Assembly (NCBI GenBank): GCA_002771395.1 | Contig: PCSS01000128.1 | Location: 1-10,484, forward strand | Direction of reading: 5' to 3' | Length of the DNA: 10,484 nt | Origin: Bacteroidetes bacterium CG23_combo_of_CG06-09_8_20_14_all_32_9 | GTDB lineage: Bacteria; Bacteroidota; Bacteroidia; Bacteroidales; GWA2-32-17 | In this document: positions 1 through 10,240 of the stretch, one piece after another | How the letters are laid out: every line of letters begins with the position of its first letter | Position numbering within the stretch: position 1 is the stretch's first letter | The notes under the pieces: model-generated | The model's input: the letters and a program-made list of their open reading frames with translations, nothing else | What the model was told of the DNA's origin: nothing | Database searches by the model: none | Position numbers and translations under genes: made by a program

Positions 1-3000
1 AATAACCTGCTTCAACATCTTTCCAGTACATTCCTAATTCTTCGTGAGTAAGAGAGTTTTCGCGAAGCGAATTAATAATTTCAAGCGGGGCTTTTTTACT
101 TTGGTAACGATATAAACCAAGCGCCATCATGCCTTGCAGATATTTATTTTCATCAAGCCAGTATTTTTCTGCCTGACCTTTATAGTAATCAAATGCTTCC
201 TTGCAACGCGCAGAAACAGGAATTTCGGTAAAAAAGCTACGTGCATAAAGGTATTGCTCTTGTGTTGAGCCAATCATCTTTTTTTGCAATTCTTCTTTTT
301 TGTAATATTTTAACAAATAATCATAATCATCTTTTATGCGTTTATCAAGATAATCAACTCCATCTTCAATTATCTTTTTCAAGTCTTTATCATTTGCATA
401 ATCAATAACTTTTAATTTTTGAAGATGACCAAATCCGGAAATAATGTGTTGCGTAATGTAACGACACTCGGGCATACCGGGGAACCAAGGCCAACCACCG
501 TTTGCCGATTGTTCTTTTTCAAGTTTTGTAAGTGCAGTACGCATTTCGTTGGACATGCGGTTCAAATCGAACAATAAACCGATATTTCTTTTGCGTTGTG
601 TTTCGTCCTGTGCATCGAGAACCCAGGGCGTTTCCTGCAGTAAAACTGATTTAAGTTCCTGGTTTTTTTCGAGATTAGAAAGTAATGCTTTTGAACCGGG
701 AGTATTTTTCCATGAATCAAAAACCGCTTTAATTTTAGGTGACGAATTAGCTATATATGTTGCCAGACTATTTGCATAATAACGACTAAAAGTTTGCTCG
801 CTACATTCGTAAGGATATTCCATAATATAAGGCAATGCCTGAACAGCATACCATGCAGGGTTTGAAGTAAACTCAAGTGTGTATTTAAAACTTTTTAATG
901 TTGATGAATTACCGGATTCGAGCATTTTTTTAAACTCAAAAGTTTTTGAAGTAAATTCACGTATTGGCAATGGCATTGATTCGGTAACCATCATACGGTT
1001 GCTCATTACAGGGATAACGCTTTCTTCACCATCGCTGAAATTTTCGGCAGTTGCAACAATCTTCACAGAAATTGCATTTACATCTTCGGGAACATTTATA
1101 TTCCATATTACGTTTGTATTACCTTTTTTATTAACCGAAAACGATTTAATGTCTTCGTTTTTCTCCAGGATTCCAATTACCTGTTTCATTGTAATTGGGT
1201 CGGTAAACTCAATTTTTGCATTACCCTTTAATTCCTTTTCACTTAAATTGCTAATTTTAACTGACAATTCCATTTTATCATTCTCCCTGAAAAAACGCGG
1301 CAGATTAGGAATAACCATAAGTTCTTTTTGAGTAATAAGCTCGTTACCAATCAAACCATATTCTAAATTTTGAGTGTGAGCGAGTCCGAGCATTTTCCAC
1401 GTTGTTAGAGCTTCGGGGACAGTAAATTTTACAATTACTTCACCATTTTCATTAGTCATTAATGTTGGATAGAAAAATGCCGTTTCGTTTAAATTTGTAC
1501 GTGCTTTAACATTGTTTAGTTTTGCTTTTTCTTCCGCTCTGGAATCAATAGTTTGTTCCGTTGAAATTAAACCTGAAACATCACCTTTGCCTGTTTCCTG
1601 TTTTTTATCAGAAGGTGAATTTATAGTAGCAACTTCAGTAATTTCTTTTTCTTCCAGTACTTCTTCAGCCATTGCGGTCACTGGCTTAGCGGCATATTTA
1701 TATCTTTTACCGTCTTTACCATTACCCTTTCTGTAACTATAATAATTATTGTAATAATAATAAAAACCAAACCAATTTAAAGCATCATAAGTTTGGTAAG
1801 GCATTTCGGGATAACCTTTATAGTTTTTGATAACCTGATTTGAAGTTTGAGTGCCGAATAAATCGGGATTAAGATATAAACTCATATAATCATAAGGAAA
1901 AACATTAAAATTCCAGTAATTGGCTTTAAGTGCATCGAGCGATTTATCATAAAGTGCTGCAACCATTTCGGCAGCAACTTTTTCGCCTTTTGGTCCGGTA
2001 ATTCTTATTCGCCATTCTTCCTGCTGACCGGGTAAAAGTTTATTGCGAAAAGTTTCAAAAGATATTTTCAATTCTTTGTTAGAATATGGAACTGTTACCG
2101 TTTCGTCGCAGGAATAAACTCTGTTATCGGCAACAAGTCTGAAATGTACCGAAAAATTACCACGATACTGCTCTAATACCAGTATTTCAATTAATGTTTG
2201 GTCATCAGTAACCTGCATCCATTTTCTGGAAATTATTTTATCTCTGTGTTCTACTTCGTAAAGTAAAAAAGCATTATTGTAACCGCTTCCTACAACAAAT
2301 TTTGCAATTTCACCGGGTTCGCATTCATTTTTAACAGAGGCATGCCAGAATGGAGTTGCATAAGGAAGTTTAGCAGATTTTTCGCTAAAAACAGTAATAT
2401 ATTTTTTATTGATAACATTTTTACCAAACGAATCTACGGCATTTATTTCTATAACGTATCTTCCGGGGTCCCATTTAATTAAATTTTTTATTTCAAATTT
2501 TTCTTCTTTGCCGGTATCAAAACCATAGTTAAAAACTTGTTTTATAATTTTTAACTTTGTTAAAACATCTTCATTTTCGTATAAATTACCTGGAAATTTC
2601 TTTTCCCATTCTTCTTTTGTATAATAATATTTATCGGGTTTTTCCCATAATCTGTTGCGCAAAACCTGCTTTTCATCTTCAAGTTTTGAAATGGTAATTT
2701 TTCCTGTTGCCGAAATTTTTTCACCATTCAAATTAGTTGTGAAAATTTTGTATTTCTTTTCCTCTGATGAATTAAGTAAAGCGGGAATATCAACATTGAG
2801 CCGTAAAGTAGTGTAACCAACCGAAATTGACCTTGAATCGCTTTGAGTTTCGCCATTAATATCAGTAATATCAATATAAACCTGAAAATCGAAATCGGTG
2901 TAATCATTTGCTTTTATTGATAAATCGGGAATAGCTTTAAACTTAAATTTGAACTCACCTTTGTCATCTGTTAGCATTTTTCCATTTGTTATTTCAACGG

Positions 3001-5320
3001 TAGTTTGTCTGAAAGGCATCCACCACCAGCCGCGCCATATTGGAGTACGAACAACCCGGTATGTAACAATGGCGTCGGAAATACTTGGCCCCGAATACGC
3101 AACTCCTTTTCCTGAAACCTCAACAGAATCGTTTAATCTGTAATTTCCTTTAAACGGGTCAATTTCAGCCATGAATTTTGGGCGTTTATATTCTTCAACA
3201 GAAATTGACATTGAGCCATCGGGAGTTGAAAGTTGAAACGAGCCATTTAAAAGTCCCTGAGGGATTTGCAATGTTCCGCTAAAAGTTCCGAAATCATTAG
3301 TAACATGCTCAACTTTTGTAACAACCTGGTAATTTGGGTCGATAAACGATAAAGTAGTAGAATATTTTTTAGCAATTGAACGACTTGAGCTGTCATTTTC
3401 TATTACAATTCCCTTATAACAGACAGTTTGTCCGGGGCGATAAATCGCCCTGTCGGTAAAAATAATTGTTGAATAAGTTTTGTATTTTTCATTGTTATAT
3501 CTGTAATTATAAAAATTTTGCCGCGATTTTAATGTTTGTTTGTTCCATTTAAACTCCAGTCCTGTGTTATATACATCTCTATCCTTTGCCGACAAAACAT
3601 TAACATAACCATTTTCATCGGTTTTATAAACATTACCTTTTATAATGTTATATTTACGTGTAATATAATTATATTTTGAGTAATATTCCTGAACCGAAAC
3701 ATCATTTAAGGGTTTACCTGTATTGCGGTGCATTACAAAAACATCGTAGCTTCCGTTAGTACAGCGGCGTTGCAAATAACTGATATCTGAAACCATAAAA
3801 TCATTATATGCAAGCGATTCATCATCAAAACTAAAGTCTTTATTTTGTGAAATGAACATTAAATAATGTCCATAAGGTAAAGTATCAATAATTAGTTCAG
3901 TGCTATGGTTGTTATAATCAAGTTCGAGGGGAAGACTAATTTCGTAATTTTTAACCGTAACAGATGATTTCAGAAGTTTATCCACAAACTCATTCCCGTA
4001 GTTATTTTCCTTAATATGTTCATAATCTTCTAAATCAATTGAAGAAATTTTAATCCAAACTTTCGGAATATTTTGATAATTTATTAAAGTGGCATAAGGT
4101 TTATTTGGAATCAGCACTTCTTCAATGTTAAAAGATAAAGTTTTATTTTCAATTTGAGTTTTTAAATTTATGCACTTTGCTGCGCCAGTAGAAGCAGGAT
4201 ATTGCTCAATGGAATTATTGCAAATTTCAATAGATTGAATGCGATAATTTTTATACTTTAAAGTAGTTGAGTCAGCCGAACTATAACTATTTGAAAGATT
4301 ATACAAACATAAAGCTCGCTCGTAAGCCACTTGGGTTGAAAAAGGATTTGTATTAAATTTGTTTTGAAGATTTTTTAAAGCATTAATGTACAAATCATCT
4401 TTTTGTGTATTTACTGAATTTGCATAAACAAACTTTAATCTTGCCAAATCGGCATCAATTAAGGCTTCGGGTTTAGCATCGTGAACATGAAATTGAAGCA
4501 ATTTTTGAATAACGTGAATTCCATAAAACTGAAGTGAAAGTGTATCTTTAGTATTAATTTTTAAATTGATAAATTCAGACGCGTCGGAAAAATAAAAGTC
4601 TTCTTTAAGTTCAAAATAATCGGCGGGTTTTGATAACGCAATTTCTTTGTTCGCGAAAAAACTGATGGCTCTAAAAGCAAGAAAATCGTAAATTGTTGGA
4701 CGAAGCCCTTCGGTTCCTTTTCCTAAATCAATAACCGCTTTAATTTCTGAAATTGGAGTACGTTTTAAACTGTCTTCGCTTTCAAAAGATTTTTCATAAT
4801 GTTTAATACAGGCATCGGCAAGTTTATTCAAATCCCAGGTTTTAATATCATCGTTCTGAAAATTAATAGTTTCGCTTCTGCTATTGAACTTCCATCGGTT
4901 ATTTTGGTAATACATCCAGTACATTTCGGCAACAATAGAGTGATAAACCGCATTGTAAGGATAATGCATAATAGCAGCATCCTTCACAAGGTCGTTCAGA
5001 ATTATTTCGAAAGCATCTTCTTCAATCATGTTTCGATACTTTAACTGATAAATTCTTGCTTTAATTACTTGTGCAGCATTATTTTCGGTATATGCTTTGT
5101 GGTAAATTTGGTTTACTAACTCTAAAGCAGATTTGGGTAATCCTTTCGAATCTAAGCTATCAATTGTAGCCCATTCCTTTTTGTAATCATTTGAAGAATT
5201 AAAATGCAATGGTTTGTCATCCGGCTTCATAATAGGTTTGTCAATAATAACACGGGCAAAAATAATTGAAAAAAAAACTATTGCCGAAACGGTTGCGAGT
5301 AAAACTTTTTTTGTTATCAT
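1..5320 (-). CDS. Alpha-2-macroglobulin family protein, C-terminus beyond the window
   Basis: Large secreted or envelope-anchored macroglobulin; bacterial members are thought to trap foreign proteases in the periplasm or at the surface. The frame opens at the ATG at 5318-5320 and stays open for 1773 codons to the left edge. Seen: a hydrophobic N-terminal segment (about residues 6-22) after MITKK with no lipobox cysteine, so a signal peptide or uncleaved anchor; a largely helical N-terminal part; the MG2 hallmark TDRAIYRPGQTV at about 622-633; further beta-rich macroglobulin domains; a low-complexity Glu/Lys/Ala-rich stretch at about 1192-1270, where a bait region is expected; the A2M-domain signature VPEALTTWKMLGLAHT near 1300-1320; and the thioester motif C1506-S-E-Q1509 (codons 794-805) within PYECSEQTFSRYYAN. 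The last residues, GMYWKDVEAGY, belong to the helical thioester domain, so from family knowledge perhaps 150-250 residues are missing. The 285-base gap upstream suggests its own transcription unit, though no convincing promoter was found. Family assignment is firm; the physiological target is unknown. Confidence 0.93.
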   Translation of the reverse strand, partial: MITKKVLLATVSAIVFFSIIFARVIIDKPIMKPDDKPLHFNSSNDYKKEWATIDSLDSKGLPKSALELVNQIYHKAYTENNAAQVIKARIYQLKYRNMIEEDAFEIILNDLVKDAAIMHYPYNAVYHSIVAEMYWMYYQNNRWKFNSRSETINFQNDDIKTWDLNKLADACIKHYEKSFESEDSLKRTPISEIKAVIDLGKGTEGLRPTIYDFLAFRAISFFANKEIALSKPADYFELKEDFYFSDASEFINLKINTKDTLSLQFYGIHVIQKLLQFHVHDAKPEALIDADLARLKFVYANSVNTQKDDLYINALKNLQNKFNTNPFSTQVAYERALCLYNLSNSYSSADSTTLKYKNYRIQSIEICNNSIEQYPASTGAAKCINLKTQIENKTLSFNIEEVLIPNKPYATLINYQNIPKVWIKISSIDLEDYEHIKENNYGNEFVDKLLKSSVTVKNYEISLPLELDYNNHSTELIIDTLPYGHYLMFISQNKDFSFDDESLAYNDFMVSDISYLQRRCTNGSYDVFVMHRNTGKPLNDVSVQEYYSKYNYITRKYNIIKGNVYKTDENGYVNVLSAKDRDVYNTGLEFKWNKQTLKSRQNFYNYRYNNEKYKTYSTIIFTDRAIYRPGQTVCYKGIVIENDSSSRSIAKKYSTTLSFIDPNYQVVTKVEHVTNDFGTFSGTLQIPQGLLNGSFQLSTPDGSMSISVEEYKRPKFMAEIDPFKGNYRLNDSVEVSGKGVAYSGPSISDAIVTYRVVRTPIWRGWWWMPFRQTTVEITNGKMLTDDKGEFKFKFKAIPDLSIKANDYTDFDFQVYIDITDINGETQSDSRSISVGYTTLRLNVDIPALLNSSEEKKYKIFTTNLNGEKISATGKITISKLEDEKQVLRNRLWEKPDKYYYTKEEWEKKFPGNLYENEDVLTKLKIIKQVFNYGFDTGKEEKFEIKNLIKWDPGRYVIEINAVDSFGKNVINKKYITVFSEKSAKLPYATPFWHASVKNECEPGEIAKFVVGSGYNNAFLLYEVEHRDKIISRKWMQVTDDQTLIEILVLEQYRGNFSVHFRLVADNRVYSCDETVTVPYSNKELKISFETFRNKLLPGQQEEWRIRITGPKGEKVAAEMVAALYDKSLDALKANYWNFNVFPYDYMSLYLNPDLFGTQTSNQVIKNYKGYPEMPYQTYDALNWFGFYYYYNNYYSYRKGNGKDGKRYKYAAKPVTAMAEEVLEEKEITEVATINSPSDKKQETGKGDVSGLISTEQTIDSRAEEKAKLNNVKARTNLNETAFFYPTLMTNENGEVIVKFTVPEALTTWKMLGLAHTQNLEYGLIGNELITQKELMVIPNLPRFFRENDKMELSVKISNLSEKELKGNAKIEFTDPITMKQVIGILEKNEDIKSFSVNKKGNTNVIWNINVPEDVNAISVKIVATAENFSDGEESVIPVMSNRMMVTESMPLPIREFTSKTFEFKKMLESGNSSTLKSFKYTLEFTSNPAWYAVQALPYIMEYPYECSEQTFSRYYANSLATYIANSSPKIKAVFDSWKNTPGSKALLSNLEKNQELKSVLLQETPWVLDAQDETQRKRNIGLLFDLNRMSNEMRTALTKLEKEQSANGGWPWFPGMPECRYITQHIISGFGHLQKLKVIDYANDKDLKKIIEDGVDYLDKRIKDDYDYLLKYYKKEELQKKMIGSTQEQYLYARSFFTEIPVSARCKEAFDYYKGQAEKYWLDENKYLQGMMALGLYRYQSKKAPLEIINSLRENSLTHEELGMYWKDVEAGY

Positions 5321-5605: not shown

Positions 5606-7453
5606 TTAATGCAATTTTCTTGTATTTAAAGGATTTATTATATATTTTTTCTTTAAGGCTATTTTTTTGTAATGCTGTATATAGTTTTTATCTTTCAAAC
5701 CCACATATTTATTTTTATAAAAAACAAACCAGTTACTATTATCAACTTTAAGATTACTTATAATACTTTTTGCATTGGTAGTAGGTCGAAAACGAATTAC
5801 ATATTTTGCAATTTCATTTATATGTTTTGGTTTATTAAATTTATTCAAATATTCTTTTGATATTTTTCTTATTGTACCACCTTTAATATTCCTGTTTGTT
5901 TTTTCCCATTCTTTTAAACCGTAAGTGCTTGTTCTACCGAAACACATAATCTTATCTTTTGCAATTCTATGATAACTACTACGCACAACTTCAATACTTT
6001 TGCAACGTTCTGGTATTTGCTTTTTTAAAATATTAAACATTTCATAAACAGTTAACGGATGCCCTTTTTTTTCTAAAAGTTCAATTATATAATCAGGAAG
6101 TGTTTTTAAGGTATTCCGTTTAAATAAAATATTCTTTTTAGAATCAAGAACCAATGAAAATTCACGAAAAAGAATCTTTTCGCAAATCTCTGAAATTAAA
6201 TTAATTTTTAAAATACTTTTTGATTTGTAAAACTGCAGCAAATACTGATTAAAATTAAGCCAATAAGTTTCACGAATTTTCCCTTTTAAATGTTTTTCAA
6301 GGTCTTCAACAAATTGAGTAAAGTCGAAAATATTTGATAGTTTATTTGAAATCAAATAAGTTTCATTCCAATTGTGCATAAAACGTTTACGTATATGTAA
6401 TACTTTATATCGCTCATTACCTATTAGCGAATGCGTTTTTTGAGTTACAACAGATAGCATTTTGTTTATAAACAACAAATTGAAATTTACATCCTCAGTT
6501 TTATTGATGTTTTCAACTAATTCATTATCAATAGCAATATAAGGTTGATTTAAATCTATATCGTAAAGGTATGTCTGCCGTATATCAATATCTTTTAGTA
6601 TTACAAAATAGTTCGAAAAATTTTCATACAGGAACTTTCTTTTTTGTCTTACTCTTTCTCTTGAAAGATTTAAAATCTTAGCTTGATTTATTAATTTACT
6701 GAAATTACCTTTATTGAAATAGTTCATACAAAATTTGAAAATTATCTTTATCTCTTTGTTAAAAATATAGTCATTGTCTATTAATATTTGTAATGTTTTG
6801 AATATTGGGAATTTACCAATTTTAGAAAAGATAGAAGTAATTTCAGAATAATGGTTTGTTTGTATCTGGTAATATTTTATTAAAATAGAATGAAAGCATT
6901 CTTTTATAAGTTCTTGCTCTGTTCGAAAAGACAATATAGAATTAATTAATTCTAATATTTCTTTTTGAAGCTTAATCAGTTCCGGAACAGTACCAACACC
7001 AACATTTTTTATGTTGTAGAAAGAGAAGTTAATATGCGAAAATATACGTTTGTAAAAACTTGTAATAGTAATATCATTATCTAAATACTTGATAAGTGCA
7101 TTAAATGCCCGTGTTGAAAGATTTCTTAACTTTATTACAATTAAGTTGTTTAATATGGATTCTTGCTGAATAGTAAGATTGTGAATTTTAACAAAAAATT
7201 CATCAATATCTTTTTCGGGCGTTTTCATATATTTCAAATAGTTTTTATACTTTTTGCAAATAGCAACGAGTTCTGCTTCCGATTTTATTCCACAATTTTT
7301 TAATGTTATAAAAGTTCTCTTTTTCTCAAAAAAGGACAAAAGATCTCCCACTGTTCTTAAATTAAAATACCAACAAATATTAAAACTTCTAACACTTATA
7401 TTTTCTATCCTTTTTAATTCTGTTAATGATGTATTTCTATTTACTTTATTCAT
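5606..7453 (-). CDS. Putative DNA-binding regulator with RNAP alpha-CTD-like, sigma region 4-like and HARE-like winged-helix modules
   Basis: A 615-residue, Lys/Asn/Ile-rich cytoplasmic protein without signal peptide or membrane segments. Residues 10-70 (ISVRSFNICWYFNLRTVGDLL, then LKNCGIKSEAELVAI) resemble the C-terminal domain of RNA polymerase alpha, a helix-hairpin-helix fold that binds UP-element DNA and activators. Residues about 105-170 (LRNLSTRAFNALIKYL, then IKNVGVGTVPELIKL) look like a second, more diverged copy. Residues about 247-283, centred on LSRERVRQKRKFLYENF (263-279), match the recognition helix of sigma-70 region 4. Residues 284-447 have no assignable domain. Residues about 448-516 (HPLTVYEMFNIL to TSTYGLKEWE) and 523-587 (KPKHINEIAKYV to NKYVGL) read as two winged helices of the HARE/RNAP-delta type. 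No sigma region 2, nuclease or other catalytic motif was seen. The ATG at 7453 is chosen because the first module begins directly after it and a promoter-like box lies upstream. It appears more A+T-rich than its neighbours. Transcription-related DNA binding is inferred; the role is unknown. Confidence 0.85.
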   Translation of the reverse strand: MNKVNRNTSLTELKRIENISVRSFNICWYFNLRTVGDLLSFFEKKRTFITLKNCGIKSEAELVAICKKYKNYLKYMKTPEKDIDEFFVKIHNLTIQQESILNNLIVIKLRNLSTRAFNALIKYLDNDITITSFYKRIFSHINFSFYNIKNVGVGTVPELIKLQKEILELINSILSFRTEQELIKECFHSILIKYYQIQTNHYSEITSIFSKIGKFPIFKTLQILIDNDYIFNKEIKIIFKFCMNYFNKGNFSKLINQAKILNLSRERVRQKRKFLYENFSNYFVILKDIDIRQTYLYDIDLNQPYIAIDNELVENINKTEDVNFNLLFINKMLSVVTQKTHSLIGNERYKVLHIRKRFMHNWNETYLISNKLSNIFDFTQFVEDLEKHLKGKIRETYWLNFNQYLLQFYKSKSILKINLISEICEKILFREFSLVLDSKKNILFKRNTLKTLPDYIIELLEKKGHPLTVYEMFNILKKQIPERCKSIEVVRSSYHRIAKDKIMCFGRTSTYGLKEWEKTNRNIKGGTIRKISKEYLNKFNKPKHINEIAKYVIRFRPTTNAKSIISNLKVDNSNWFVFYKNKYVGLKDKNYIQHYKKIALKKKYIINPLNTRKLH

Positions 7454-7491
7454 TGTTAATATTAAAAAATTAATTTATAGCGTTATATACC

Positions 7492-7519
7492 TGTTATTTA
7501 TTAAACTTAATAAATAACA
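7492..7519. promoter_or_regulatory. Perfect 11-bp inverted repeat in the leader of the 615-residue regulator gene; candidate operator
   Basis: TGTTATTTATT (7492-7502) and AATAAATAACA (7509-7519) are exact reverse complements around a six-base AAACTT spacer. The element starts 39 bases upstream of the ATG at 7453 and just downstream of the -7-like box at 7534-7541, so it would span roughly the first transcribed bases. A symmetric site there could be an operator bound by a dimer, perhaps by the gene's own product. It could instead be an RNA hairpin in the leader. It is A/T-rich and has no following T-run, which argues against an intrinsic terminator. Confidence 0.5.
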
Positions 7520-7533
7520 TTAAAATACCGCCT

Positions 7534-7541
7534 CAAATGTA
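7534..7541 (-). promoter_or_regulatory. Candidate Bacteroidota -7 promoter box for the 615-residue regulator gene
   Basis: On the minus strand this reads TACATTTG, an exact fit to the Bacteroidota -7 consensus TAnnTTTG. Transcription would begin near 7528, giving a leader of about 75 bases that contains the 11-bp inverted repeat. A clear TTTG at the expected -33 spacing was not seen; only A/T-rich DNA with TTTA about 21 bases upstream is present. Because the motif is short and the region A/T-rich, a chance match is possible. Confidence 0.4.
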
Positions 7542-7593
7542 TAAACTTTTTTATAAATTAAAAAAATCGTCATCTTTTGTGTGTTTATATTTT

Positions 7594-7655
7594 TCAATCT
7601 CTTCTTAAATCTTCCTCAATCTCGTCAATCTTGTCTTCTCAATCTTTTTCAATCT
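7594..7655. repeat. Degenerate short tandem repeat, AGATTGA units
   Basis: Read on the minus strand, AGATTGA occurs exactly five times (plus-strand starts 7594, 7616, 7625, 7639, 7649), with one degenerate copy AGATTTA (7606). Spacing is irregular, about 9 to 14 bases. The array lies just beyond the stop codon of the OmpA-family gene and upstream of the next gene's promoter-like box. It is not in any supported coding frame. It may be a slippage-generated intergenic repeat or a protein-binding cluster; nothing seen decides between these. Confidence 0.6.
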
Positions 7656-7669
7656 TTGCAAAGTATATT

Positions 7670-9607
7670 TTACTTTACTCCCGTAATAATAAATTCAGTT
7701 CTTCTGTTTAAAGCTTTGCCTTCTTCAGTATCATTTGCAGCAATTGGTTTCGAAAAACTGTATCCTTTATAACTGAGCCTTGAAGCAGCAACTCCATGTT
7801 CAATTAAATAATTTAAAACCGATTTGGCGCGGTTTTGTGAAAGATTAAGATTATGAGCTTGTGAGCCAACATTATCGGTATGTCCATCAATTTCTATAGT
7901 TACGCCCGTATTGTCTTTCATAAACATAATTAGTTTAGTGAGTTCGGCTTTTGATTCAGGTTTAAGCTCGTATAAATCCGTATCAAAAAAAATATTTTTA
8001 AGTATCACCGACACACCTGTTTTTATAGGGGTTAAGAAAACATCAAGTTTATAAGGCTTGGTAAAATCGGTAATACCTTGCAACGAAAAGTTATCACTGT
8101 AAAAAACATAGTCTTTTTTTGAAACGTTAAATGCATAATTCTTTTCAGCAGGAATACATACCAGGTATGAACCGGTTATTGGGTCGGATTTAAGACAAGT
8201 AACGGTTTCTGAAGTTTCCAGTTCAATCATTTCAATATTTGCTTCAATTTTTTGTTTTGTAACGGCATCGTAAACTACGCCTGCAACCCACGTAACAGGT
8301 GCAGGACGGGCTTCGGGGTATAGTTCAAATTGATAAATATCCCAATCTTTTGAGTCTTTGCGATTTGAGGAATACATAGCTAAATTTCCGTGTGCATTAA
8401 CAATTAAGCCGAAATCATCAACAAAAGTATTTATTGGATAACCAATATTTTTAGGAATGCTCCATGTTCCATCGCTTTTAAGTCTGGAATAAAAAATATC
8501 TTGTCCGCCCATACCGGTGAAACCATCAGAAGAAAAGTATAATGTTTTTCCATCAGGATGAATAAAAGGTGCATATTCATTTTTAGAAGTATTAATGCTG
8601 TCGCCCAGGTTTACTGGCTCCGACCATGTTCCGTCAAGTTTACGTACAGACATATAAATATCTCTTCCGCCTTTGGAGTCGGGTCTTCCACCCGATGCAA
8701 AAAAAAGCACACGACCGTCGGATGATGGTGCAGGGTTAGATTCCCAATGGTTTGTATTTATTGGTGGTCCTATATTTTCAGGTGTACTCCATTTGTCGCC
8801 TGTTTTTTCGGAAAAATAAATATCACAGGAGCCAAAATCCTCTTTTCTATTACAGGCAGTATAAAAAAGATAACGACCGTCGGCTGAAATGCTTTGTGCG
8901 CCTTCGTTATCTTCAGTATTTAGCGGAGGTCCCGCATTTATTGATGGAGACCATGTTCCGTTTTCGTTTTTGTGTGTTATAAAAAAATCTTCCTGCATCT
9001 GCACAGTTTCCATTGGTTTATGATTTTTTGCAGGAAGCTGAACTGTAAACATCATTGTATTTTCGTCGGCTGTTAGTGAAGGCCAATAATCTTTAAATTC
9101 GGTATTAACATAAGGTCCAAGGTTTACGGGATTAAAGGGGACGGGGTTTTTAACCGCATCGGCTCCAAATTCAGCATTTTTAAGTAATTGCTGAGATATG
9201 TTTATGGTTTCGGTATCAACTTCGGTGTAGCTTAAACATTTTTGTAAATGCTCAACTGCACTATCATAATTTCCGATTTTAAGTTCCGATTTTGCCGCTA
9301 ATAAATATATTTTAGGATTATAATCGGGATTTATCTCTATAACCTTTTTAAATGCTTCTATTTCCTTATCAAAATGAAACTGCTCATTTTCCATATCGGC
9401 TAATAACAAATAAGGCTCTATAAAGTTAGGGTCTTTTATGAGAGCTGCCCGAATATAATTATTAGTATTAACTAAATCGCCTTTATTATAATACCCTAAT
9501 GCTATATTAAACAATGTAATAGCTTTTTTATTTTTTGTTGAATATTTTTCCTGCGAAAATCCTGTAAGTGAAATTAAAACTAATAATATTATTAATATTT
9601 TGTGCAT
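7670..9607 (-). CDS. OmpA-family envelope protein with TPR, PD40 propeller and regulatory-like domain (PorE-like architecture)
   Basis: A complete 645-residue exported protein. Residues 1-19 (MHKILIILLVLISLTGFSQ) form a signal peptide with cleavage likely after FSQ; there is no lipobox cysteine. Residues about 27-130 are TPR-like helices for protein contacts. Residues about 160-430 hold repeated PD40/WD40-like propeller motifs such as SADGRYLFYT, PDGKTLYFSSDG and GGxDIYxS. Residues about 438-525 look like a carboxypeptidase-regulatory-like beta sandwich (VAGVVYDAVTKQKI). Residues about 534-643 are an OmpA C-terminal domain with GHTDNVG, LSQNRA and NRRTEF; D578 and R593 are the usual peptidoglycan diaminopimelate contacts. 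This order matches PorE, which ties the type IX secretion machine to the cell wall, but PorE is described as a lipoprotein and Bacteroidota carry several paralogues of this architecture, so a structural envelope role is safer than a named one. It starts nine bases after the queE stop, so it is probably cotranscribed. Confidence 0.92.
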   Translation of the reverse strand: MHKILIILLVLISLTGFSQEKYSTKNKKAITLFNIALGYYNKGDLVNTNNYIRAALIKDPNFIEPYLLLADMENEQFHFDKEIEAFKKVIEINPDYNPKIYLLAAKSELKIGNYDSAVEHLQKCLSYTEVDTETINISQQLLKNAEFGADAVKNPVPFNPVNLGPYVNTEFKDYWPSLTADENTMMFTVQLPAKNHKPMETVQMQEDFFITHKNENGTWSPSINAGPPLNTEDNEGAQSISADGRYLFYTACNRKEDFGSCDIYFSEKTGDKWSTPENIGPPINTNHWESNPAPSSDGRVLFFASGGRPDSKGGRDIYMSVRKLDGTWSEPVNLGDSINTSKNEYAPFIHPDGKTLYFSSDGFTGMGGQDIFYSRLKSDGTWSIPKNIGYPINTFVDDFGLIVNAHGNLAMYSSNRKDSKDWDIYQFELYPEARPAPVTWVAGVVYDAVTKQKIEANIEMIELETSETVTCLKSDPITGSYLVCIPAEKNYAFNVSKKDYVFYSDNFSLQGITDFTKPYKLDVFLTPIKTGVSVILKNIFFDTDLYELKPESKAELTKLIMFMKDNTGVTIEIDGHTDNVGSQAHNLNLSQNRAKSVLNYLIEHGVAASRLSYKGYSFSKPIAANDTEEGKALNRRTEFIITGVK

Positions 9608-9616
9608 ATTATTTTA

Positions 9617-10240
9617 TTAAGGAATACGCATAAATTTATGCGCCTGTATTGAAATATTCCATTTTGGATTTGCTTTTACATATTCTACTACTTTATCAAT
9701 AATTTTGCTAAAACGGCTCCATTCCGGTTGCAGAAAGAGTTTAGATTCAGGTTTTACCAGCAAAGCATTTTCTTCGGCCCACAAAAAGTCGTTAGAACTT
9801 TGAATAATAACTTTTAACTCATCTGCCTTGTTATAAATTTCAGAAAGTGGCGGGTTTTGTTTTTTTGGCGAAAGGCAAATCCAGTCCCATTTGCCAGATA
9901 AAGGATATACTCCGCTTGTTTCGAGAAAAGTTGAAATTCCATTATTTTTTAAGTTTTCACACAAATCATCGAGATTATAACTGAGAGGTTCGCCACCAGT
10001 TATAACGACGGCTTTTGCAGGAAATTTTGCTGCATTTTCAACAATTTCATTAACACTAACAAGCCATTCTGACTGATTATTCCACGAAAATTTAGTATCG
10101 CACCAGTTGCAGCCAATATCACAACCTGCAATACGTATAAAATATGCCGCTTTACCGGTATGAAAACCCTCACCCTGAATAGAATAAAATTTTTCAATAA
10201 CAGGTAGTTTTATTCCTGAATCTTTTTCCGAAATTAACAT
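9617..10240 (-). CDS. queE: 7-carboxy-7-deazaguanine synthase QueE
   Basis: Radical-SAM enzyme that converts 6-carboxy-5,6,7,8-tetrahydropterin to 7-carboxy-7-deazaguanine, the ring-contraction step toward preQ0, queuosine in tRNA and other deazaguanines. The protein is complete at 207 residues, near the lower end for the family. Seen: the N-terminal signature EKFYSIQGEGFHTGKAAYFI (16-35); the iron-sulfur cluster motif C40-x3-C44-x2-C47 in CDIGCNWCDT; the SAM-binding GGEP at 82-85; ETSG at 107-110; SPK at 124-126; and the C-terminal QAHKFMRIP. The ATG at 10240 fits because a promoter-like box lies about 20 bases upstream and the conserved part begins soon after it. No other queuosine gene (queC, queD, queF) is visible in the window. 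The downstream neighbour is an unrelated OmpA-family gene nine bases away, so cotranscription rather than shared function is implied. Confidence 0.96.
   Translation of the reverse strand: MLISEKDSGIKLPVIEKFYSIQGEGFHTGKAAYFIRIAGCDIGCNWCDTKFSWNNQSEWLVSVNEIVENAAKFPAKAVVITGGEPLSYNLDDLCENLKNNGISTFLETSGVYPLSGKWDWICLSPKKQNPPLSEIYNKADELKVIIQSSNDFLWAEENALLVKPESKLFLQPEWSRFSKIIDKVVEYVKANPKWNISIQAHKFMRIP

Follow-up and report, generated by a model that had tools for sequence, protein, structure and literature searches.

A protein family with alpha-CTD-like, sigma region 4-like and winged-helix modules and its linkage to Dnd-type operons

Results and discussion

A multi-module gene on the minus strand

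The window analysed here, by which we mean the whole stretch of 10,484 nucleotides, is positions 1 to 10,484 of contig PCSS01000128.1 from Bacteroidetes bacterium CG23_combo_of_CG06-09_8_20_14_all_32_9. Our subject is a gene in it, P0001 at 5606..7453, and the family to which its product belongs. A preliminary description had placed an open reading frame (ORF) there and read its product as a chain of parts of the transcription machinery; the frame is real and open, encodes 615 amino acids and lies on the minus strand. In other genomes the family gene mostly stands directly in front of Dnd genes, in operons that usually keep only the C-terminal tail of DndC. The gene and its modules, which resemble the C-terminal domain of the RNA polymerase (RNAP) alpha subunit (alpha-CTD), region 4 of sigma factors and winged helices, are given below; residue k of the protein corresponds to window positions 7453-3k+1 to 7453-3(k-1).

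5606..7453, minus strand: whole gene (P0001), 615 amino acids, with two alpha-CTD-like modules, a sigma region 4-like module, a middle domain and two winged helices
7238..7438, minus strand: alpha-CTD-like module 1 (residues 6-72), from profile, structure and contact residues
6932..7168, minus strand: alpha-CTD-like module 2 (residues 96-174), from hhalign to module 1 and contact residues
6584..6826, minus strand: sigma region 4-like module (residues 210-290), from profile and structural matches
6644..6667, minus strand: start of the recognition helix, LSRERVRQ (residues 263-270), from residue conservation
6113..6583, minus strand: middle domain (residues 291-447), conserved in the family, with no fold search of its own
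5903..6112, minus strand: winged helix 1 (residues 448-517)
5684..5887, minus strand: winged helix 2 (residues 523-590), with the conserved stretch GGTIR, P542, H544, R556, N567, G585

Searched alone against Pfam, the window protein gives sub-threshold matches to the alpha-CTD (E=0.003) and HARE (PF05066, 0.058) families and no sigma match, though the LSRERVRQ motif is visible; DUF3217 (0.0029), D5_N (0.09) and DUF3535 (0.15), also sub-threshold, were left unused. The support for the alpha-CTD, sigma region 4 and winged-helix modules lies at the family level and comes from profiles, structures and residues. Of 7990 candidates scored in a protein search, 219 passed E<=0.001, the window protein among them, and 69 of the 120 relatives listed form our alignment A1, where F328, G345 and E431 of the middle domain are among the invariant positions. 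When the A1 profile was compared with PDB sequences, the 60 of 90 matches seen included RNAP alpha chains (best 1.5e-6), the HA helicase domain (1.3e-5) and region 4 of RpoS/RpoD (best 2.7e-5). Sixty single members (56 of the 120 listed and four from loci) were also scanned against Pfam at E<=0.01: 48 matched RNA_pol_A_CTD, 39 Sigma70_r4, 39 HA and one HARE-HTH, and the L050 protein exceeds the curated cut-offs for both alpha-CTD (7.3e-20) and sigma region 4 (7.8e-7).

Module 2 was reached by no structure search. By hhalign it aligns with module 1 at a probability of 94.8 (E=4.8e-8 for one comparison), and five control pairings of unlike modules gave 0.2-0.8%. For the sigma region 4-like module, all 50 of the 50 structural rows listed are sigma chains by title and range. 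Foldseek returned no match at E<=0.001 with either of two models and was not used alone to assign modules.

The two alpha-CTD-like modules and the sigma region 4-like module of the preliminary description thus hold, profile searches giving significant matches to both families in members other than the window protein. Its two HARE/RNAP-delta winged helices stand as winged helices, a fold that is supported; the matches that would justify the more specific label are weak, the best PF05066 value being 0.007, in the single member at E<=0.01, and the RNAP delta model TIGR04567 reaching 0.029 in L047, below its cut-off. It had also denied that the protein is a sigma factor for want of region 2, and we reject a sigma factor on the same ground: the 60 members match 16 Pfam families, none of them a region 2 model. 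Some NCBIfam sigma matches extend upstream of region 4, such as that of the sigma-32 model at residues 144-277 of P0092, but they score far below cut-off. The N-terminal assembly domain of RNAP alpha is not covered, as the matches start no earlier than about position 227 in models and chains of roughly 300-330 positions.

We take the E. coli alpha numbering R265, N268, G296, K298, S299 and E302 to apply to the alpha-CTD modules. Module 1 of the window protein has equivalents of all six; module 2 has those of R265, N268, G296 and E302, with G154 in place of the K298 equivalent and T155 in place of the S299 equivalent. Across the family, module 1 keeps R265 in 61 of the 65 members with a letter there, N268 in 53 of 65, G296 in 64 of 66, K298 in 56 of 66, S299 in 52 of 66 (64 with T allowed) and E302 in 65 of 66. 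In module 2, K occupies the K298 equivalent in 40 of 69 and S or T the S299 equivalent in 54 of 69. The sigma helix, in the protein's own numbering, has R265 in 56 of 69 members, E266 in 67, R267 in 69, R269 in 68 and Q270 in 69. All 15 contact positions counted in the window protein are intact, a count that omits the K298 and S299 equivalents of module 2, and binding of DNA at several points would fit these conserved residues.

The family gene precedes Dnd genes, and DndC is usually reduced to its tail

One scan of GTDB genomes yielded 48 loci, mostly Bacteroidota by title, with one Desulfococcaceae and one Gammaproteobacteria record. Because in 35 of them the family gene is immediately followed by Dnd genes, on the same strand and in a fixed order, we link the family first of all to a Dnd-type DNA-scanning system. 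A full dndC comes next in four loci (gap -17 to +4 bases) and dndD in 31, at a gap of 155-234 bases in 30 and of 498 in one, where the family gene is split. The DndE-HerA fusion gene is present in 33 of the 35, and the other two loci (L009, L017) end soon after. The family gene is usually the first of its operon, since a same-strand ORF of at least 70 amino acids lies within 100 bases upstream in only three of the 35. As for the remaining 13 loci, the contig ends less than 2 kb past the gene in three (L006, L040, L045), dnd genes lie at another place of the locus in two (L044, L047), and the last eight show none, with more than 5 kb of sequence following the gene. The family gene of L047 shares four bases at its start with a cysteine desulfurase gene (DndA/SspA models, 8.5e-158/9.6e-161), a tie that is weak taken alone because such enzymes are common.

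The Dnd proteins were identified by model matches. DndD of L014 scores 2.5e-86 with PADLOC and 6.3e-76 with TIGR03185, above the NCBIfam cut-off; DndC scores 1.4e-148; DndE (PF08870, 1.5e-7 and 7.4e-11) is above the Pfam cut-off in both proteins scanned and is fused to a HerA/AAA_10 ATPase. Together with the four full dndC genes, this is what the operons share with DndABCDE. They differ from it in that 31 of the 48 loci have only a DndC tail, in the fusion of DndE to HerA and in the alpha-CTD/sigma region 4/winged-helix gene in front.

The tail gene was recognised by searching the gap before dndD for ORFs of 45-80 residues. Each of the 31 loci in which no dndC is adjacent has a small gene of 59-67 residues at this place, which overlaps the first 4-14 bases of dndD. 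Because the 155-180-base gap turned out to be this ORF, the idea of a non-coding RNA in it was rejected; an Rfam scan of five sources returned no match at gathering scores. Against a profile of seven DndC proteins, hhalign places the small protein on DndC columns 392-456 of 465 with a probability of 97.6% (E 2.6e-12), compared with 0.1-1.5% for five other alignments. Conversely, a profile of the small proteins searched against all ORFs of at least 70 amino acids found two overlong versions of the small gene, six DndC proteins (1.3e-12, 6.5e-12, 1.3e-7, 2.5e-5, 8.1e-5 and 0.011) and nothing else; it missed the seventh DndC (L083). A DndC-only profile recovers every one of the 31 small proteins at E<=0.01, with a median of 4.2e-7, but just 3 of 310 shuffled sequences. 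The identification rests on these profile comparisons and not on single-sequence matches: three of three small proteins matched NCBIfam DndC models at 0.036-0.09, with unrelated models at similar E, and three of four matched PADLOC DndC (0.0052, 0.016, 1.8e-5), the L003 protein giving no match. The small gene is the C-terminal tail of DndC.

In the parts of PMC12193691 considered here, residues 433-482 and the last helix of DndC are reported to bind DndD in E. coli B7A, from AlphaFold3 models with pull-down support. Since the small gene is this DndD-binding tail, the docking part of DndC has been retained while the sulfurtransferase has gone; and because the tail gene replaces dndC in 31 loci, most family operons are without the DndC enzyme. 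With DndC missing they should be unable to phosphorothioate DNA and would act without marking it. No DndC was found at E<=1e-5 in G124 and G290, the only stub-operon genomes searched whole, where the tail was confirmed at 1.9e-33 and 1.3e-20; the same search matched two DndC-bearing genomes.

A variable, patchily distributed family

Among 395 genomes of the phylum, the window's included and with two or three candidates scored in each, the family occurs in six (E<=1e-15; a partial match in G323, 332 amino acids, E 8.7e-11, is excluded) and DndE-HerA in four (E<=1e-30); they co-occur in two (Fisher p=0.0011). Among 41 close relatives and the window's own genome, six match at E<=1e-10, three of them only partially.

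In pairwise comparisons of 24 of the 31 stub loci (seven with split, cut or divergent genes were omitted), the family protein shows lower conservation than DndD in all 276 pairs and than DndE-HerA in 226 of them, with medians of 0.43, 0.68 and 0.60 for the family protein, DndD and DndE-HerA, the pairs not being independent. L013 and L026 are alike in DndD (96-100%) and in the DndE part (96-98%), but HerA is down to 26-50% and the family protein's C-terminal part drops from 76-96% to 14-48%. L012 and L015 have HerA in common (72-100%) and differ in the DndE part (38-56%). The DndE and HerA parts thus appear to have been exchanged independently between otherwise similar operons. Low conservation and an exchangeable C-terminal end are as expected of a recognition subunit.

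The same protein could instead be an autoregulator in the place of DndB, which is a proposed transcriptional regulator in the parts of PMC10853773 compared here. It would then bind only its own promoter and stay outside any DNA-scanning complex, and its usual first position, with nothing but the small gene between it and dndC or dndD in the adjacent loci, would suit such a role. An autoregulator, however, needs neither five or more modules for DNA binding nor a C-terminal end open to exchange, and a common upstream sequence is found only in some flavobacterial loci, also before unrelated genes; we therefore consider this account unlikely.

Evidence for a role in defence is indirect, consisting of the patchy distribution (six of 395) and of some defence and mobile-element genes among the 89 flanking genes (140-900 amino acids) beside 28 operons, which match 90 Pfam and 96 PADLOC families. 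Among the 25 commonest of these are the phage integrases and the IS200 transposases, with two genes each; CBASS cyclase, SLATT, reverse-transcriptase, methyltransferase and Schlafen/AlbA families have one or two genes each, and ordinary metabolic genes occur too. These counts, which are without a background measure, are only consistent with a mobile defence island.

The window copy is a detached one

The three neighbours of the window gene look ordinary; they were named from reading their translations, not by family search.

2-5320, minus strand: very large alpha-2-macroglobulin-like protein
7670-9607, minus strand: TPR/PD40/OmpA-like protein
9617-10240, minus strand: QueE-like radical enzyme

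There are no dnd genes among the window ORFs, and the DndC tail was not found in the window at E<=1. The window's assembly comprises 2.28 Mb in 400 contigs and is 74% complete; DndD and DndE-HerA were not found in it at E<=0.001, nor was DndC. The DndE-HerA and DndC queries match other genomes, a positive control that the DndD query is without.

In a tree of 57 rows (rows below 450 amino acids omitted, several long branches flagged, midpoint root), the window copy groups with those of C299 and G002 (100/100), and the three are sister to the stub-operon copy of L003 (100/100). The orphan label, given to copies without an operon and also to L040 and C299, where the contig stops close to the gene, changes 11-12 times on the tree, at least eight times by starred branches. 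The window gene therefore most likely left an operon, as a detached descendant of an operon-borne copy.

The G002 copy (G002:C14, L076) shares the PD40/OmpA-QueE neighbourhood with the window and is missing alpha-CTD module 1, about 70 bases standing in place of the region equivalent to window 7216-7665. The C299 copy (G000:C299:1-3183, L078), a second family gene in the window's own assembly followed by a macroglobulin-like gene, is cut at the contig end and follows the G002 form. Over 1788 bases it is 90% identical to the G002 DNA and only about 71-74% to the window, and it is either a paralogue or a related strain's contig.

Omega, the ratio of nonsynonymous to synonymous substitution rates, is 0.39 (0.29-0.50) for the window against C299, 0.41 (0.32-0.53) against G002 and 0.52 (0.33-0.80) for C299 against G002, compared with 0.07-0.14 in flanking genes, 0.13-0.36 in five chosen operon-borne family pairs and 0.05-0.12 in the dndD of those pairs; the synonymous rates (dS) are rough, coming from simple counting in an AT-rich gene. 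The GC content is 0.244 against 0.33-0.35 in the flanking genes, and the C-terminus is shorter than in most operon-borne members, L050 being equally short. The window gene is under weakened but real constraint.

These features could reflect a decaying remainder of a lost Dnd-like operon, functionless at present. Such a relic would account for the missing DndD, DndE-HerA and DndC, the low GC content and raised omega, the short C-terminus and the N-terminal loss in G002. Yet the 615-codon frame is intact, all three omega intervals exclude 1, the 15 counted contact positions are kept and the genome is only 74% complete, so that we find a relic doubtful.

The kept contact positions and an omega of 0.39-0.41, with its interval below 1, would fit a domesticated host regulator, in which the window copy and other orphans act as chromosomal transcription factors on upstream promoter elements, blocking or helping RNAP. 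Orphans do recur (the eight of 48 loci with more than 5 kb and no dnd genes), and besides the neighbourhood shared by the window and G002, three Capnocytophaga orphans (L037, L038, L042) have common neighbours; ERVRQ is intact in these, and alpha-CTD module 1 is poorly kept in L037. Against domestication, omega is about 3-5.5 times that of three flanking genes, G002 is without alpha-CTD module 1, as the contig-cut C299 copy appears to be, and three of the four other genomes of the genus have no match at E<=1e-10. Orphans as a class also retain the contacts less well. When 57 sequences were split by context, with T allowed for S299 and K for the first sigma position, the five sigma region 4 positions were kept in 30, 32, 32, 32 and 31 of 32 stub-linked members and in 11, 16, 16, 16 and 16 of 18 orphans; N268 of module 1 is present in only 16 of the 30 stub-linked members with a letter there. 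Domestication is a possible account of the orphans that we lean against.

A candidate promoter-reading subunit

We propose, with a probability of roughly 0.55 for the explanation as a whole, that the family protein recognises targets for Dnd-derived operons, as their promoter-reading subunit. In its usual form the operon encodes, in order, two alpha-CTD modules, sigma region 4 and two winged helices in one chain, with or without a variable C-terminal end, then the DndC tail, the DndD ABC ATPase and DndE-HerA. The alpha-CTD modules and sigma helix may grip UP/-35-like upstream promoter DNA, which is our best reading, just as alpha-CTD and sigma region 4 do next to each other on an authentic promoter, while the winged helices and C-terminal end would touch neighbouring DNA. 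In this way the protein could place a scanning, translocating DndD/DndE-HerA machine, with the DndC tail docked on it, on promoter-like DNA, and stub operons would occupy, loop or translocate DNA and not mark it. A detached copy such as the window's could still bind promoter-like DNA alone, as a regulator or roadblock. Competition with RNAP or its recruitment, and an antiviral role, are conceivable further functions. We see here a variant of the Dnd kind, whose core has no DndC enzyme and comes with a docking remnant of DndC and a protein of several modules, in our reading a promoter reader.

It is tempting to go further. A Dnd descendant without sulfur marking might recognise invaders by their promoter architecture, its alpha-CTD/sigma region 4 mimic loading the DndD/DndE-HerA motor at UP/-35 elements and silencing or pulling on strongly promoted foreign DNA, with the protein repeatedly escaping to become a stand-alone promoter binder, as in the window. 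We regard this fuller scenario as speculative and rather doubtful.

Parts of this arrangement have precedents. The parts of PMC10853773 compared here describe a 'clade-3 HerA/FtsK', in which HerA is fused to DndE and stands next to a DndD-like ATPase, as well as DndDE dyads that have no phosphorothioation genes; the former is very probably the same DndD/DndE-HerA pair as in the family operons. The main-text parts compared do not mention the upstream alpha-CTD/sigma region 4 protein or the DndC-tail gene, of which a prior description is possible. PbeABCD, or CxC-ABC ATPase, in the same source likewise joins an ABC ATPase, a DndE cognate and a small protein, and PbeC models score the L014 ATPase at 8.4e-83, nearly as high as DndD models do (2.5e-86). 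In the family operons, by contrast, the small protein is the DndC tail, not described as disordered, and neither an HKD nuclease nor a helicase is among the recurrent neighbours.

Transcription-derived modules are a known theme in defence proteins, because PglW and BrxL of BREX carry them: in the parts of PMC12839542 considered here, PglW combines a kinase, an RNAP alpha-CTD-like domain and three winged helices, and BrxL has a sigma-like domain. The family resembles PglW in its alpha-CTD-like and winged-helix modules; it differs in adding sigma region 4 and in having no kinase detected in the Pfam scans. MzaA, a sigma-70-like protein of the MZA anti-phage system (NF041931), matches residues 174-260 of the L050 protein with its C-terminal part (2.9e-10), but at 39.6 bits against a cut-off of 800 and only over that stretch. 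The complex of alpha-CTD and sigma region 4 on UP/-35 DNA (PDB 3n97) has the same two DNA-reading modules, which the family protein fuses in one chain without a polymerase core or sigma region 2. A literature search for the domain combination gave no paper describing such a protein by its title or the start of its abstract; coverage was incomplete and we claim no novelty.

That some Dnd operons have no DndC is known, though not why (PMC10853773, sections 11 and 16 among the parts compared). For some of these operons the family offers a candidate recognition subunit made of promoter-reading parts. Survival of the tail suggests that the site on DndD where DndC docks is important even in the absence of sulfur chemistry, and orphans of the window's type illustrate how a part of this kind can become separated from a defence-like operon.

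Additional observations

Two viral-contig scans, covering close relatives only, gave no relative, and a viral origin was set aside; P0092 had no match in plasmid or phage records. The copies of L017 (titled Bacilli) and L022 (titled Rhodobacteraceae) group among Bacteroidota copies in the tree and are probably mis-binned contigs. L036:1097-4000 encodes a 967-residue family protein whose N-terminal extension, read by eye, resembles pentapeptide repeats.

Directly downstream of two stub operons lies a Schlafen/AlbA-type gene (L011:6419-7744, L013:13817-15637), a candidate occasional effector that presumably corresponds to the two SLFN_AlbA matches.

A conserved imperfect hairpin (around GCACATTTGGTTTTTGCC) lies about 150-165 bases upstream of the family gene in L014, L030 and L010. 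It was also seen in L090 and L095 and occurs before unrelated genes as well, in L095 before a helix-turn-helix gene followed by a putative cytosine methylase, and it looks like a cassette boundary. Searched with two mismatches, its per-genome frequency was not clearly above a reversed control. The words enriched in flavobacterial loci are part of this hairpin and were not taken as a binding site, and a promoter-like consensus seen in 3 of 28 upstream regions, against 0.4 expected, was too infrequent to be used.
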